Shown: positions 14,259 to 21,037 of the stretch, in pieces
Numbering within the stretch: the first letter of the stretch is position 1
Layout: the number at the start of each line of letters is the position of its first letter
Origin: an uncultured Rhodospirillales bacterium
GTDB lineage: Bacteria; Pseudomonadota; Alphaproteobacteria; CAAGCB01; CAG-977
Direction: 5' to 3'
NCBI GenBank assembly: GCA_902777205.1
Contig: CACYSU010000004.1
Location: 68,125 to 104,226, forward strand
Length of the DNA: 36,102 nucleotides
Made by a program: the position numbers and the translations under genes
The notes under the pieces: generated by a model
The model's input: the letters and a program-made list of their open reading frames with translations, nothing else
Database searches by the model: none
Told to the model about the DNA's origin: nothing

Positions 14259-14915
14259 TTATCTGGTTTTCGTCCCGAACAGACGGTCGCCCGCGTCGCC
14301 CAACCCCGGCAGAATGTAGCCGTGTTCGTTCAGCTTTTCGTCCAGCGACGCGACATAGACCGGAACATCCGGATATTTTTGCGTGAAAACGCGCACGCCT
14401 TCGGGCGCGGCGACCAAAGCCAGAAAAACGATCTTGCTTTCCGGCACGCCGTGTTTGATCAGCGTGTCAACGGCGGCGGCGGCCGAATTGCCCGTCGCCA
14501 GCATCGGATCGACCAGAATGAACAGACGGTCGTCAACGGGCGGCAGCTTGACCAGATATTCCACGGGTTTCAGCGTTTCGGGATCGCGGTACAGCCCGAT
14601 ATGCCCGACGCGCGCGGACGGCACCAGCTGCAGCAGCCCGTCGGCCATGCCGATGCCGGCGCGCAGAATGGGAACGACCGCCAGCTTTTTCCCCGCGATG
14701 ACGGGCGCGGTCGTTTTGCACAGGGGCGTCTGGATTTCCTCGAACGTCAGCGGCAGGTCGCGCGTGACTTCGTACCCCATCAGCAAAGCGATTTCCTTGA
14801 GCAGTTCGCGAAACGTGCGAGTCGATGTCGTTTCGTCGCGCATCAATGTCAGCTTGTGCTGGATCAGCGGGTGTTTCAAAATGTGCAGATTTGGGAATTC
14901 GGAACCGTTTGACAT
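14259..14915 (-). CDS. upp: Uracil phosphoribosyltransferase
   Basis: A 218-residue enzyme that makes UMP from uracil and PRPP in pyrimidine salvage (cytoplasm). The PRPP-binding loop is [10 protein letters not shown] (about 135-144). The uracil-binding C-terminus [17 protein letters not shown] is intact, and [10 protein letters not shown] (85-94) is also typical. Length is normal for Upp. I choose the ATG at 14915, which has AAGGA nine bases upstream; an earlier ATG at 14939 adds MIFYKDAF without a good ribosome site. A strong promoter lies at 14955-14983. It is divergent from the nucleoside-catabolism operon, which would supply uracil if a phosphorylase acts on (deoxy)uridine made by Cdd. 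Confidence 0.97.
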
Positions 14916-14954
14916 AAAAGCATCCTTATAAAAAATCAAAAATGTCCTCTTAGA

Positions 14955-15037: not shown

Positions 15038-15067
15038 TTGACGAAGGTTTGAGCTATATCTTAAAGT
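15038..15067 (+). promoter_or_regulatory. Probable promoter of the cdd-deo operon
   Basis: TTGACG (15038-15043), 18 bases, TAAAGT (15062-15067). The -35 box is near consensus and the -10 box is moderate; the cdd ATG follows 28 bases later. I see no DeoR or CytR site that I would trust. Confidence 0.45.
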
Positions 15068-15095
15068 GCATAAAAACAATAAAAAGGTGGCAACT

Positions 15096-15497
15096 ATGAA
15101 CACTTTGGACACGATGCTGCAAATGGCGCGCGACGCCATGGATCGGGCGTACGTCCCTTATTCCGAATTCCGCGTGGGCGCCGTGATCAAGGCGCAAAGC
15201 GGCCGGCTGTACGCCGGATGCAATGTCGAAAACGCTTCGTACCCCGTCGGGTCGTGCGCCGAACAGGGCGCGATTTCGGCCATGGTTTTGGGCGGCGATT
15301 TGAAAATCGAGGAAATGGTCGTCATGGGCGACGGTGAAAACCTGACTTCGCCCTGCGGCGCCTGCCGTCAACGCATCCGCGAATTCGCCGCGCCCGACGT
15401 TTTGATCCACATTTGCGACAGGACGGGTGTTCGTAAAACCATGACTCTGGCCGAACTTTTACCGGTTTCGTTCGGGCCGGAAAATCTTCAACGCTAA
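15096..15497 (+). CDS. cdd: Cytidine deaminase
   Basis: A 133-residue enzyme that deaminates cytidine and deoxycytidine to uridine and deoxyuridine. It is the short, tetrameric type, with three zinc cysteines: Cys54 in SCAEQGA (Glu56 is the proton shuttle), and Cys87 and Cys90 in SPCGACRQ. The substrate motif is NVENAS (43-48). I start at the ATG at 15096, which has AAAGGTGG directly upstream; an ATG at 15066 adds only a Lys-rich extension. It is the first gene of the operon cdd, purine nucleoside phosphorylase, deoC, deoA, deoB. Confidence 0.97.
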   Translation: MNTLDTMLQMARDAMDRAYVPYSEFRVGAVIKAQSGRLYAGCNVENASYPVGSCAEQGAISAMVLGGDLKIEEMVVMGDGENLTSPCGACRQRIREFAAPDVLIHICDRTGVRKTMTLAELLPVSFGPENLQR

Positions 15498-15530
15498 ATC
15501 GGAATGTCTTTGTTAAAAAAGAGGAAGTTT

Positions 15531-16346
15531 ATGAAAGAAACCATTACTCAGGTCGCAGAACAGATCAAATCGAAAATCGGCGACCGCCAACCTAAAATCG
15601 GTATCATTCTGGGCAGCGGACTGGGCGGCATGGCCGAAACCATCGAAAACCCCGTCGTCATCCCTTACGAAGAAATCGAAGGTTTCCCCCGTTCCACCGT
15701 GTCCGGTCACGCCGGCCGTCTGGTCGTCGGAAAACTGAACGGCGTTGACGTGCTGTGTATGCAGGGACGCGTCCATTTTTACGAAGGACATTCCCCCGCC
15801 GCTTTGGCGCTGGTCATCCGCGCGTACAAAAAACTGGGCATCGAAAAGCTGATTCTGACGAATGCGTCGGGTTCTTTGAACGTTGACATGGGCCCCGGCA
15901 GCCTGATGATCATTTCCGACCACATCAACCTGTCGGGATGCAACCCCCTGATCGGCCCGAACGACGAAACCGTCGGCCCCCGTTTCCCCGATATGACTTA
16001 CGCTTATGACGCGGAATTGCGCGCGAAGTTGCTGGAAACCGCCGAAAAAGAAGGCATCAATATGCGTTCCGGCGTTTACCTGATGACATCGGGTCCGAAC
16101 TTTGAAACGCCGGCCGAAATCCGGATGTTCCGCATTCTGGGCGCGGACGCCGTCGGTATGTCCACGGTTTCCGAAACGCTGTGCGGCGTGCATTGCGGCA
16201 TGAAAGTCGTCGGCGTTTCCGTCATCACCAACTATGGCGCGGGCATGGTGTCGAACAAACAAACGCACGCCGAAACGATCGCGCAGGCCAACGAAGCCGG
16301 TAAAAAACTGCAGCGTATTCTGACGCGCTTTGTCAAGGAGATCTGA
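15531..16346 (+). CDS. punA: Purine nucleoside phosphorylase (trimeric, PunA/XapA type)
   Basis: A 271-residue enzyme that splits purine (deoxy)nucleosides with phosphate into base and (deoxy)ribose-1-phosphate. Family marks are GIILGSGLGG (phosphate loop), VSGHAGRLVVGKL, GRVHFYEGH, LTNASGSLN, TSGPNFETPAEIRM, DAVGMSTVSE and ITNYGAGM. These belong to the mammalian-like trimeric class, not the hexameric DeoD class. The ATG follows GAGGAAG. It ends one base before deoC, so translation is probably coupled. The product (deoxy)ribose-1-phosphate is the substrate of DeoB, encoded downstream. The symbol is by family; substrate range (for example xanthosine) cannot be read from the sequence. Confidence 0.95.
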   Translation: MKETITQVAEQIKSKIGDRQPKIGIILGSGLGGMAETIENPVVIPYEEIEGFPRSTVSGHAGRLVVGKLNGVDVLCMQGRVHFYEGHSPAALALVIRAYKKLGIEKLILTNASGSLNVDMGPGSLMIISDHINLSGCNPLIGPNDETVGPRFPDMTYAYDAELRAKLLETAEKEGINMRSGVYLMTSGPNFETPAEIRMFRILGADAVGMSTVSETLCGVHCGMKVVGVSVITNYGAGMVSNKQTHAETIAQANEAGKKLQRILTRFVKEI

Positions 16347-16347
16347 G

Positions 16348-17109
16348 ATGACGGATATGAAGGAAATCGCCGCGAAGGCTTTGTCCCTGCTGGATCTGAC
16401 CAGCTTGAACGACGACGACACGGATGAAAAGATCGTCGCCTTGTGCGCCAAAGCGCACGGCGAATTCGGCAAAACGGCCGCCGTCTGCGTGTGGCCGCGC
16501 TTTGTCAAAACCGCCAAAAAGGAATTGGAAGGCACGGGCGTCGGCATCGCGACCGTCGTCAACTTCCCCCACGGCGGCACGGACGTTGACGCCACCGTCG
16601 CCGAAACGAAACAGGCCGTCGCCGACGGCGCCGACGAAATCGACGTCGTCCTGCCGTACAAGGCGTTCATGGACGGGGACAAGGAAACGGCCGCCGCTTT
16701 GTTGAAAGCCACGCGCGAAGCCTGCAAGGGCAAGGTGATGAAAGTCATCATCGAATCGGGCGTTCTGGCGCACGCGGCGCTGATTTCCGACGCGTCCCGC
16801 CTGTCGATCGAATGCGGCGCGGATTTCATTAAAACCTCCACGGGCAAAACGCCCGTTTCCGCCACGCTGGAAGCGGCCAACGCCATGTTGGAAGTCATCC
16901 GCGAATCCGGCAAACCCGTCGGTTTCAAAGCGTCCGGCGGCGTCCGCACCACGGAACAGGCCGCCGATTACCTGACGCTGGCCGACAAGATCATGGGGCC
17001 GAAATGGGCGACGCCGAAAACGTTCCGCTTCGGCGCCAGCGGTCTGCGCGACAGCTTGCTGGCCTCCATGGGATACGGCAAAGCTCCGGCGGAAAACAAA
17101 GGGTACTAA
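16348..17109 (+). CDS. deoC: Deoxyribose-phosphate aldolase
   Basis: A 253-residue TIM-barrel enzyme that splits 2-deoxyribose-5-phosphate into glyceraldehyde-3-phosphate and acetaldehyde. The Schiff-base lysine is Lys162 in FIKTSTGK. The helper residues are Asp99 (DEIDVVLPY) and Lys194 (GFKASGGVR), equivalent to E. coli Lys167, Asp102 and Lys201. I use the ATG at 16348, with AAGGAG upstream; it follows the phosphorylase stop by one base. An in-frame start at 16330 would overlap the previous gene. deoA follows after 3 bases. Confidence 0.97.
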   Translation: MTDMKEIAAKALSLLDLTSLNDDDTDEKIVALCAKAHGEFGKTAAVCVWPRFVKTAKKELEGTGVGIATVVNFPHGGTDVDATVAETKQAVADGADEIDVVLPYKAFMDGDKETAAALLKATREACKGKVMKVIIESGVLAHAALISDASRLSIECGADFIKTSTGKTPVSATLEAANAMLEVIRESGKPVGFKASGGVRTTEQAADYLTLADKIMGPKWATPKTFRFGASGLRDSLLASMGYGKAPAENKGY

Positions 17110-17112
17110 CAT

Positions 17113-18432
17113 ATGCTGGCGCAGGAAGTCATCCGCCATAAACGCGACGGCCAGAAACTGACGGACGAGGAAATCGAATTCTTTGTCAAAGGGGCGACCG
17201 ACTGGTCCGTTTCCGAAAGTCAGATCGCGGCTTTCACAATGGCGGTGTTCCTGCGCGGCATGGATTTGGACGAAACGGTCGCCCTGACCCGCGCCATGAC
17301 CCGTTCGGGGGAAATGCTGGACTGGTCGGACAAAGGGTTGGACGGCCCCGTCGTTGACAAACATTCGTCGGGCGGCGTCGGCGACAGCGTCAGTCTGGTT
17401 CTGGCGCCTTTGCTGGCGGCGTGCGGCGGTTACGTCCCGATGATCGCGGGGCGCGGGCTGGGACACACCGGCGGAACGTTCGATAAAATCGAATCCATTC
17501 CGGGATACGCGGCCATGCCGTCGTCCGAACGCCTGTACGCCGTCACGCGCGAAGCGGGATGCGCCATCATCGGGCAAACGGGCGATCTGGCGCCGGCGGA
17601 CAAACGTTTTTACGCCATCCGCGACGTTTCCGGCACGGTTGAATCCATGCCGCTGATCGCGTCGTCGATCCTGTCGAAAAAGCTTTCGTCCGGACTGCAG
17701 GCGCTGGTCATGGATTTGAAGTGCGGCAACGGGGCGTTTATGACCGATTTGGACGAAGCGCGGACATTGGCGCGCACGATGACGGCCGTCGCCAAAGGCG
17801 CGGGCGTCCGCGCCGAAGCGTTGCTGACGGATATGAATCAGGTTTTGGGCGATTGCGTCGGCAACGCCCTTGAAGTCGCCGCCGCCGTTTCCTATTTAAA
17901 AGGGGAAAGGCGCAATCCGCGTTTGCACGAACTGACCATGGCGTTGTGCGGCAAAGCGTTGATTTTGACGGGATTGGCCGCCGACGACAACGACGCGCGC
18001 GCGAAATTGGAACGCGCGCTGGATTCGGGCGAAGCGTTGGAACGTTTCGCCAAAATGGTCGCCGGATTGGGCGGCCCCGCCGATTTCACGGACAAACCGT
18101 CCGAATATCTGCCCGCGGCGGCGATCGTCCGCCCCGTTTTTGCCGAACGGACGGGATTTGTCACCGCGATGGACACGCGCAAAATCGGCGAAACAATGAT
18201 CGTTTTGGGCGGTCAGCGCAAGAATTTCGACCAACGGCCGGATTACGCCGTCGGTTTTACGGACTTTATCAAGGTCGGCGAGGAAATCCCCGCCGACAGG
18301 CCTATCGCCGTCGTTCACGCCGAAAGCGAAGACGCTTTCGCCGAAGCGGAACAGCGGCTGCGGTCGGCCGTTTCAATCGGCGACGAACGCCCCGCCGCGG
18401 GGTTGCTCGTCTATGAAACGGTGACGGCTTAA
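17113..18432 (+). CDS. deoA: Thymidine phosphorylase
   Basis: A 439-residue enzyme that converts thymidine (and deoxyuridine) plus phosphate to the base and deoxyribose-1-phosphate. The phosphate loop [14 protein letters not shown] (81-94) is canonical, with Lys83, Ser85 and Ser94 matching E. coli Lys84, Ser86 and Ser95. [19 protein letters not shown] is present, and [20 protein letters not shown] holds the pyrimidine-binding Arg, Ser and Lys. Length is normal for the family. It lies between deoC and deoB with short gaps. A second, divergent homologue lies downstream at 19751-21037; the contrast between the two is described there. Confidence 0.97.
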
Positions 18433-18455: not shown

Positions 18456-19691
18456 ATGAAACGGGCAATTATTCTGATGATGGATTCGTTCGGCTGCGGC
18501 GAAGCGCCGGATGCCGAGGCTTTCGGCGATGTCGGCGCGAACACGCTGGGGCACATCGCCCAAGCCTGCGCCGAAGGCAAAGCCGAAAACGGGCGCACGG
18601 GACCGTTGAAACTGCCGAATTTGTGCAAACTGGGACTGGGCGAACTGTACAAACAGTGCAACGGCGAATACGCGCCGAACATGGAAATCCCCGTGTCCGA
18701 AATCAAAAGCGTTTACGGCTATTCCAAAGAAGTCAGCAAAGGCAAGGACACGACATCGGGGCATTGGGAAATGGCCGGCGTTCCCGTGATGTTCAAATGG
18801 GGTTACTTCCCCGCCGAATATCCCAGCTTTCCGGCTGAAATCATCGACGAATTCGTCAAACGTGCCAAAATCCCCGGCGTTCTGGGCAACAAAGCCGCGT
18901 CCGGCACGGTCATTTTGGAGGAATTGGGCGAAGAAAGCGTCAAAACGGGCAAACCTATCGTTTATACATCCGCGGACAGCGTGTTCCAGATTTGCGCCCA
19001 CGAAAAGCATTTCGGTTTGGAACGCCTGTATGAAATCTGCCACATCGCGCGCGACATTTTGAATGAACACACCGAAAACGGCGTGATCGCCCGCGTGATC
19101 GCCCGTCCGTTCGACGGCGAAAACAAGGAAACGTTCAAACGCACCGGCGGCCGCCACGATTATTCCGTTCTGCCCCCCGCCCCGACCGTTCTGGACAAGA
19201 TGAAAGCCGCCGGCGGCAACGTCATTTCCATCGGCAAGATCAGCGACATTTTCGCCGCGCAGGGCATTACGAAAGCTTTGCCCGCCGTCGGTTTGGAACA
19301 GCTGTTCGACGTGACGCTGGATCAGATCCGCACCGCGCCCGACAATTCGATCATCTTCCCGAACTTCGTGAACTTCGACATGGACTGGGGTCACCGCCGC
19401 AACGTGTCGGGTTACGCCGCGGGGCTGGAATATTTCGACAGCCGCCTGCCCGAACTGTTTGCGGAAATGAAAGAAGGCGACATTTATTTCATCACGGCCG
19501 ACCACGGTTGCGACCCGACGTTCAAAGGAACCGACCACACGCGCGAACACGTGCCCGTGATCATGTTCGGCAAAGGAATCGCCCCGCGCTACATCGGCCG
19601 CCGCGACACCTATTCCGACATCGGTCAGACGATCGCCGAATACTTCGGTCTGGAACCGTTTGAAAACGGCAAATCGTTTTTGAACAAGTAA
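18456..19691 (+). CDS. deoB: Phosphopentomutase
   Basis: A 411-residue, metal-dependent enzyme of the alkaline-phosphatase superfamily. It converts (deoxy)ribose-1-phosphate to the 5-phosphate, linking the phosphorylases to DeoC. Visible marks are the metal ligand Asp10 ([14 protein letters not shown]), the phospho-acceptor motif [12 protein letters not shown] (Thr99), [10 protein letters not shown], and [18 protein letters not shown] with further metal ligands. GAAGGGA precedes the ATG. It is the last of the five tightly spaced genes; a hairpin follows. Confidence 0.97.
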
Positions 19692-19699
19692 CCTTATCG

Positions 19700-19728
19700 A
19701 AAGGGCATTCCCGCGGGGATGCCCTTTT
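19700..19728 (+). terminator. Rho-independent terminator or attenuator after deoB
   Basis: A 12-bp stem (19700-19711 with 19716-19727, one G-T pair) around a CGCG loop is followed by a short T tract. The stem reads AAAGGGCATTCC against GGGATGCCCTTT. The next gene lies only 23 bases downstream on the same strand, so read-through may give the deoA paralog a lower level than deoA itself. Confidence 0.65.
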
Positions 19729-19750: not shown

Positions 19751-21037
19751 ATGCTGCCGCAGGACATCATTCGCAAAAAACGCGACGGACAAACGCTGGA
19801 TAAACAGGAAATCGACGAATTTGTTCAGGGCATCAACGACTGGTCGATATCCGACGGACAAATCGCGGCGCTGTTGATGGCGGCGCTGGTCAACGGGCTG
19901 GACAACGGCGAATTGACCGCCTTTGTCAACGCGATCGTCGAAACGGGCATCATCCTGAATTGGGACAGCGTCGATCTGAACGGCCCCGTGACATCGGTTT
20001 ACACCATGCCCGACGTGGGGGACAAATCGGAAATCATTCTGGCGCCTTTGCTGGCGGCGTGCGGCGCGTACGTCCCCATGATCTGCGAACGGATGCAGTA
20101 TCACACCGGCGGCACGCTGGACAAGCTGGACAGCATCAAAGGGTTCACGTCGCGGCCGACTTTGGCGCGTTTCAAAAAAGCACTGCGGGAAAGCGGGTGC
20201 GCGTTCATGTCGCCGACGGAGCAAATCGCGCCGGCGGATATGCGCATCCAAGCGATCCGCGACGTGACGGCCACGGTCAGCAGCATCCCGCTGATGATCA
20301 TGTCGCTGTTGGTCAAAAAAATCGCCAGCGGCGTTAAAAACGTCACGATTGATGTCAAGGGCGGCAACGGCGCGCTGACCCCGTCGGAACAAGAAGCGGA
20401 AACCTGCGCCGCCCGAATCGCGGAATGCGCGCCGGCGTTCGGATTGAACCCGAACATCGCCTTTACGACGGCCGACCACGTCATCGGCCAGAACGTCGGC
20501 AACGCGCTGGAAGTTTACGAAGCGTGGGCGTACCTGACCGGAACGGGGCCGCGCGACGGCGAACTGCACGACGAAATTTTGAACATCTGTTCCGGCGCGC
20601 TGATCCAAAACGGCATCGCCGCGACGAAAGAGGAAGCCGTTGACAAAATCGAACAGGCCTTGGGTTCGGGACGGGCGGCGGAATGTTTCGGCCGGATGCT
20701 GTACGAACAGGGCGTGCAGCCGAATTTCCTGTCCAATCCGTCGGCTTTCCTGCCGTCCGCGCCGGTCGTCCGCCCCGTCTATCCGGACAAAGAAGGATAC
20801 GTCGAAAAAATGAACCTGCGCTGGATCGGGCTGGCGACGCTGGAAATGGGCGCCGGCCGCCTGTATCAGGAACAGTCGCTGGATTACGCGGCGGGATACA
20901 GCAACGTCTGCCGTCCGGGGATGTACGTTTCCGGCCGCATCCCCTTGGCGTTCGTGCACGCGGGCGACGCGCAGACGGCCGAATTGGCCGCCGTCCACCT
21001 GAAAGGCGCGATCACGATATCAGAACAGCCGGTCTGA
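19751..21037 (+). CDS. Divergent thymidine phosphorylase paralog lacking the phosphate-binding loop
   Basis: A 428-residue homologue of DeoA, collinear along its length, including the C-terminal domain. The phosphate loop is altered: where deoA has [14 protein letters not shown], this one has TSVYTMPDVGDKSE (81-94). Lys83 is Val, His84 is Tyr, Ser85 is Thr, both glycines are Pro/Asp and Ser94 is Glu. The next glycine-rich turn, normally [10 protein letters not shown], reads ERMQYHTGGT. By contrast the pyrimidine-binding residues are kept: Arg170 (IRDVTATV), Ser185 and Lys189 (MSLLVKK). The protein is otherwise well preserved, which argues against simple decay. It may bind pyrimidine nucleosides without phosphorolysis, use another acceptor, or pair with DeoA. 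It follows the deoB hairpin and overlaps the tail of glnE by 18 bases. Confidence 0.9.
   Translation: MLPQDIIRKKRDGQTLDKQEIDEFVQGINDWSISDGQIAALLMAALVNGLDNGELTAFVNAIVETGIILNWDSVDLNGPVTSVYTMPDVGDKSEIILAPLLAACGAYVPMICERMQYHTGGTLDKLDSIKGFTSRPTLARFKKALRESGCAFMSPTEQIAPADMRIQAIRDVTATVSSIPLMIMSLLVKKIASGVKNVTIDVKGGNGALTPSEQEAETCAARIAECAPAFGLNPNIAFTTADHVIGQNVGNALEVYEAWAYLTGTGPRDGELHDEILNICSGALIQNGIAATKEEAVDKIEQALGSGRAAECFGRMLYEQGVQPNFLSNPSAFLPSAPVVRPVYPDKEGYVEKMNLRWIGLATLEMGAGRLYQEQSLDYAAGYSNVCRPGMYVSGRIPLAFVHAGDAQTAELAAVHLKGAITISEQPV

Follow-up and report, generated by a model that had tools for sequence, protein, structure and literature searches.

The window, i.e. the whole analysed stretch of 36,102 nucleotides, contains a deo cluster of the gene order cdd-punA-deoC-deoA-deoB-deoA2, from which upp is divergently oriented (see Table 1). 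All cluster genes other than deoA2 were named without conflict by curated models, and the DeoA of the window possesses the complete set of K84, H85, S86, S95, R171, S186 and K190 (E. coli numbering). The product of deoA2, 41% identical to the adjoining DeoA, fails one model of thymidine phosphorylase (TP) and passes another: TIGR02643 gave 410.4 bits, below its cut-off of 570.7, and PRK05820 gave 399.7 bits, above its cut-off of 269; the model of pyrimidine nucleoside phosphorylase (PyNP), TIGR02644, reached 346 bits and thus remained below its cut-off of 409. As the curated PRK05820 accepts DeoA2 as a thymidine phosphorylase, the protein is probably mis-annotated under this name in the databases. 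The 3' end of deoA2 runs 18 bases into the convergent glnE open reading frame (window positions 21020-21037), an overlap that is also present in the genus loci L003-L008.

Table 1. Genes of the deo cluster and sequence features of deoA2 (window coordinates; residue exchanges given as E. coli TP residue to DeoA2 residue)
Feature	Position	Strand	Evidence or remark
upp, uracil phosphoribosyltransferase	14259..14939	-	PRK00129, 279.2 bits; divergent from the deo genes
cdd, cytidine deaminase	15066..15497	+	PRK05578, 149 bits
Purine-nucleoside phosphorylase, punA type	15504..16346	+	PRK08202, 380.7 bits
deoC, deoxyribose-phosphate aldolase	16330..17109	+	TIGR00126, 226.1 bits
deoA, canonical thymidine phosphorylase	17113..18432	+	TIGR02643, 633.6 bits, above cut-off
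deoB, phosphopentomutase	18456..19691	+	TIGR01696, 491.1 bits
Terminator-like hairpin with T tract	19700..19727	+	between deoB and deoA2
deoA2, TP-fold paralog	19751..21037	+	intact open reading frame, 428 aa
Altered phosphate loop, residues 81-94, TSVYTMPDVGDKSE	19991..20032	+	K84 to V, H85 to Y, S95 to E; E94 invariant in 12/12
Glu94 codon	20030-20032	+	within the altered phosphate loop
Altered glycine turn, residues 113-122 (ERMQYHTGGT)	20087..20116	+	M115, Y117, H118, G120, G121 invariant in 12/12
Base-holding R170, S185, K189 kept; new invariant Q167 (E. coli Y168)	20249..20317	+	alignment to E. coli TP

All three Pfam domains of TP (PF02885, PF00591 and PYNP_C) were recognized in DeoA2 above their cut-offs. 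The AF2 model, calculated from a shallow alignment of 14 rows, reached a pLDDT of 84.5 and a pTM of 0.86; its best PDB matches were exclusively TP and PyNP structures (TP of Salmonella, E. coli and human, and PyNP), and with TM scores of 0.87-0.91 to TP it adopts the three-domain NP-II fold. The model is weakest at the altered turn 114-117 and at residues 172-177 (pLDDT below 50) and, in consequence, does not fix the geometry of the pocket.

The active sites were compared on the basis of an alignment of DeoA2 to the E. coli TP sequence of 1azy, in which the DeoA2 residue number equals the E. coli number minus one. In TP, the phosphate ligands are K84, S86, S95, S113 and T123 (E. coli numbering). 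Their counterparts in DeoA2 are V, T, E, C and T, i.e. T123 is the only one of the five to be kept. R115 is likewise retained, as are R171, S186 and K190, which, like His85, contact the pyrimidine in TP (PMC5238616). His85 is substituted by Tyr in DeoA2, and further replacements comprise G88P, G116M and G118Y; the remodelling extends to the base/sugar side (L117 to Q, Y168 to Q), and the ligand may for this reason be other than a pyrimidine nucleoside. A preceding sequence-only reading had described the exchanges of K84, S86 and S95 for V83, T85 and E94 and the retention of R170, S185 and K189; this change of loop and turn is real and the numbering was right. Its view that the nucleoside site had been kept holds for the Arg/Ser/Lys triad, but the exchanges at H85, S113, L117, G118 and Y168 had been missed.

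DeoA2 is encoded in all 12 genomes of the source family of gut and rumen bacteria (the order has no others among the genomes examined; the named relatives are metagenome-assembled genomes). The copies share 55-100% identity with that of the window and adjoin the deoA of their own genome; wherever enough flank was read, they occupy the slot behind deoB in the same gene order. K84 is found in none of the 12 proteins, Glu at position 95 and the triad R171/S186/K190 in every one of them. In DeoA2 numbering, E94, M115, Y117, H118, Q167, R170, S185 and K189 are invariant, and M86, P87, C112 and Q116 are conserved in 11 of the 12; E. coli position 85 is occupied by Tyr in nine proteins, by His in two and by Cys in one. 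Because the same pattern recurs in 12 of 12 genomes, the active-site remodelling is not a product of chance. The occurrence of the altered loop in related genomes had been set as a check beforehand: the loop was found throughout the family, neither confined to one genome nor accompanied by disabling decay. A local pair of frameshifts as source of the odd loop was rejected on account of its conservation in 12 genomes.

Strong purifying selection acts on deoA2. The mean pairwise dN/dS within the genus was 0.062 for DeoA2 versus 0.134 for DeoA, a rough estimate as synonymous sites are near saturation and only the 17 unsaturated pairs were used; dN alone conveyed the same message (0.120 versus 0.227). 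The pocket segments evolve more slowly than the gene as a whole (dN 0.026 for residues 108-126 and 0.062 for residues 158-192), and conservation amounts to 83% at the turn versus 65% at residues 3-65. Of the 66 pairs formed by the 12 genomes, 60 show higher conservation for DeoA2 than for DeoA. DeoA2 combines three features expected of a pseudoenzyme of the TP family: lost catalytic residues, a retained fold and purifying selection. Within genus g3, it is DeoA that erodes (K84 to I and S95 to G in G011, R115 to V in G010, S95 to N in G008), and the DeoA2 pattern stays; in G011, the DeoA (G011:C43; L030, L086) has lost K84, S95 and the glycine turn (ERGSSYYTSTADK). As the DeoA2 pattern is unchanged in this genome, DeoA2 does not seem to depend on an active DeoA for its role. 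In the deo cluster of G011, the phosphate site is no longer intact in any TP. For the source family, a private or decaying gene was rejected on the grounds of the 12/12 presence and the dN/dS of about 0.06.

The covarying hairpin between deoB and deoA2 is found at the same place in all 12 family genomes, approximately 25-30 bases before the deoA2 start and usually with a T-rich stretch behind it. Across 10 aligned genomes, five of its 12 pairs were changed on both sides and 95.8% of the cells pair; none of 500 shuffles reached the observed number of double-sided changes. The pattern of the hairpin has a single site in the whole genome, and it was not seen at the corresponding place of the second copies of other families (see below). 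The hairpin was absent from the output of the terminator scanner, whose loop and stem rules may miss a structure of this kind. The hairpin is a possible intra-operon attenuator: there is little space for a promoter between hairpin and deoA2, so the gene is presumably transcribed through it and hence at a reduced or regulated level, and the extent of read-through would probably set deoA2 expression.

Second deoA copies without K84 and S95 are present in four further alphaproteobacterial families. They follow deoB directly in G013, G061 and G080 and are located on another contig in G032 and G163 (the orders of G013, G080 and G061 are represented by one genome each among those examined). Position 95 is occupied by P, D, N, Q and P in these copies; outside the source family, the base triad is retained in G061 only (in two frameshifted pieces), whereas G013, G080, G032 and G163 have lost part or all of it. 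The common trait of the 17-member paralog lineage is the loss of K84 and S95, and no single new catalytic residue has been gained. The copy of G061 (G061:C234:1-1044, L063) shows a frameshift or stop and runs off the contig end; it represents a pseudogene or an assembly error. In the maximum-likelihood tree, DeoA2 forms a clade (D2) with a support of 100/99, and DeoA2 and all other second copies (X2) are placed on one side of a branch supported by 94/88; as X2_G080 and the copies of G032 and G163 are long branches, the grouping of all second copies is not firm. Since the slot after deoB is shared, one old duplication is the simplest reading, and DeoA2 and the second copies of the other families probably arose from it. 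The D2 profile, whose self-score was 821 bits and whose scores elsewhere did not exceed 430 bits, recovered no further member from 398 genomes of the phylum. A widespread DeoA2 subfamily was rejected, the 28 new best loci of this search all carrying the canonical DKHSTGGVGD loop. Phage and plasmid matches to DeoA2 were below 60% identity, and the annotated ones among the listed matches carry, as far as names go, those of thymidine or pyrimidine nucleoside phosphorylase.

The uridine released by Cdd had been thought to lack a route because no uridine phosphorylase gene was seen in the window. This was wrong: the gap does not exist, as a uridine phosphorylase gene is located elsewhere in the source genome (G000:C1:213032-213700; TIGR01718 304.4 bits, cut-off 280.3). 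A second Udp-like NP-I phosphorylase (G000:C3:46767-47318, L077) scored 186 bits and thus stays below the uridine phosphorylase cut-off of 280. An IU-type nucleoside hydrolase is encoded in 11 of the 12 family genomes; the source genome G000 (98.8% complete) gave no IU nucleoside hydrolase match and none to the AMP-phosphorylase-like protein of about 500 aa of the 11 other family genomes. No udk above cut-off was detected in the family genomes.

As to what DeoA2 does, an ordinary phosphorylase is very unlikely; here the sequence-only reading finds good support in the fact that the loss of K84, S95, S113 and, mostly, H85 is conserved. A phosphorylase with another substrate or a rebuilt anion site (e.g. 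R114, K92, T122) is likewise highly improbable: position 123 is Thr or Ser in all 12 proteins, position 115 Arg or Lys and VGDK invariant, but K84, S95 and S113 are replaced in nearly all 12, and the acidic Glu put into the site should repel phosphate. Hardly credible is a decaying duplicate without function, which would agree with the frameshift or stop of the G061 copy and with the larger number of residues lost from the copies of other families, but not with the low dN/dS, the intact gene in 12/12 family genomes and the invariance of the newly introduced residues. DeoA2 could also act as an inactive heterodimer partner that tunes DeoA. The TP fold is kept, including the N-terminal helical domain that carries the dimer contacts in TP; deoA and deoA2 lie in one gene cluster and co-occur in 12/12 genomes, and NP-II enzymes are two-domain dimers (PMC7226091). 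This partnership nevertheless appears quite unlikely: it is weakened by G011, where DeoA2 is unchanged and DeoA has lost its phosphate residues, and by the location of the strongest conservation at the altered pocket instead of the N-terminal domain; moreover, of the two proteins the supposed client DeoA is the less conserved, and the hairpin lies between the coding regions of the two.

A more serious rival, although still unlikely, is an enzyme that would hydrolyze pyrimidine nucleosides, or exchange their bases as a transferase, independently of phosphate; in it, R170/S185/K189 would stabilize the leaving base and Glu94 would activate water or form a glycosyl intermediate. The proposal is chemically coherent, and a Glu in the place of the phosphate would suit such an enzyme. 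The candidate catalytic carboxylate E94 is invariant in 12/12 (the neighbouring turn 114-117 being one of the two weakly modelled stretches), and no part of DeoA2 is more constrained than the pocket. In favor of the proposal, MTA/SAH nucleosidase differs from the NP-I phosphorylases by a similar shift, with the phosphate site lost and a Glu gained, and nucleoside deoxyribosyltransferases employ a Glu nucleophile. However, the second copies found in the other four families do not share the Glu, the catalytic-site His is Tyr or Cys in 10 of the 12 DeoA2 proteins, the free sugar resulting from hydrolysis would be unusable by DeoB and DeoC, and uridine is already served by Udp. Since the lineage shares the loss of catalytic residues and not the gain of one new residue, we lean, tentatively, towards a pseudoenzyme that serves the deo pathway by binding a ligand; DeoA2 would then be a TP-fold protein without phosphorolysis whose pocket has been repurposed. 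According to this pseudoenzyme proposal, an old TP paralog would have abandoned phosphate-dependent cleavage and been kept for another job: the Arg170/Ser185/Lys189 pocket would still take a pyrimidine base, a nucleoside or a related ligand, the former phosphate pocket, lined by Val83, Tyr84, Cys112 and Glu94, would now exclude phosphate, and the protein, e.g. a nucleoside sensor or regulatory protein, would close its two domains upon the ligand.

It is conceivable, with some reserve, that DeoA2 is the founding member of an NP-II branch without phosphorolysis, devoted either to Glu-based cutting or swapping at the glycosidic bond or to nucleoside sensing in control of deo salvage. The literature searched contained no such branch, and no TP pseudoenzyme or second deoA on point; if true, DeoA2 as a sensor or phosphate-free glycosidase would be, as far as this literature shows, without precedent in the NP-II fold, and a Glu94-based hydrolase or transferase would be a more striking result than a pseudoenzyme. 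Among known systems, thymidine phosphorylase DeoA (NP-II, TIGR02643; 1azy, 4x46, 5ey3) resembles DeoA2 in fold, domain order, deo operon setting, 40-41% identity and the base triad R171/S186/K190; in contrast, DeoA2 has lost K84, S95, S113 and mostly H85, carries G88P, G116M, L117Q, G118Y and Y168Q and stays below the TIGR02643 cut-off. PyNP (TIGR02644; 1brw) exhibits the same fold (TM about 0.89), but DeoA2 lacks the same phosphate loop and fails the PyNP model. AMP phosphorylase and the PRK04350 archaeal-type 'thymidine phosphorylase' belong to the same superfamily, of which the protein of about 500 aa in 11 other family genomes (named by a model in one of the 11) is a separate member; it shares only about 20% identity with DeoA2 and is not the origin of the latter. 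A salvage-enzyme paralog beside an active one is also known from the APRT of T. brucei and is reported to be kinetically inactive (PMC8836349); it has an unrelated fold and occurs in a eukaryote, and no homology is claimed. DeoA2 represents a natural experiment: fold and base pocket are the same, the phosphate site has been removed by evolution, and the change has been held family-wide.
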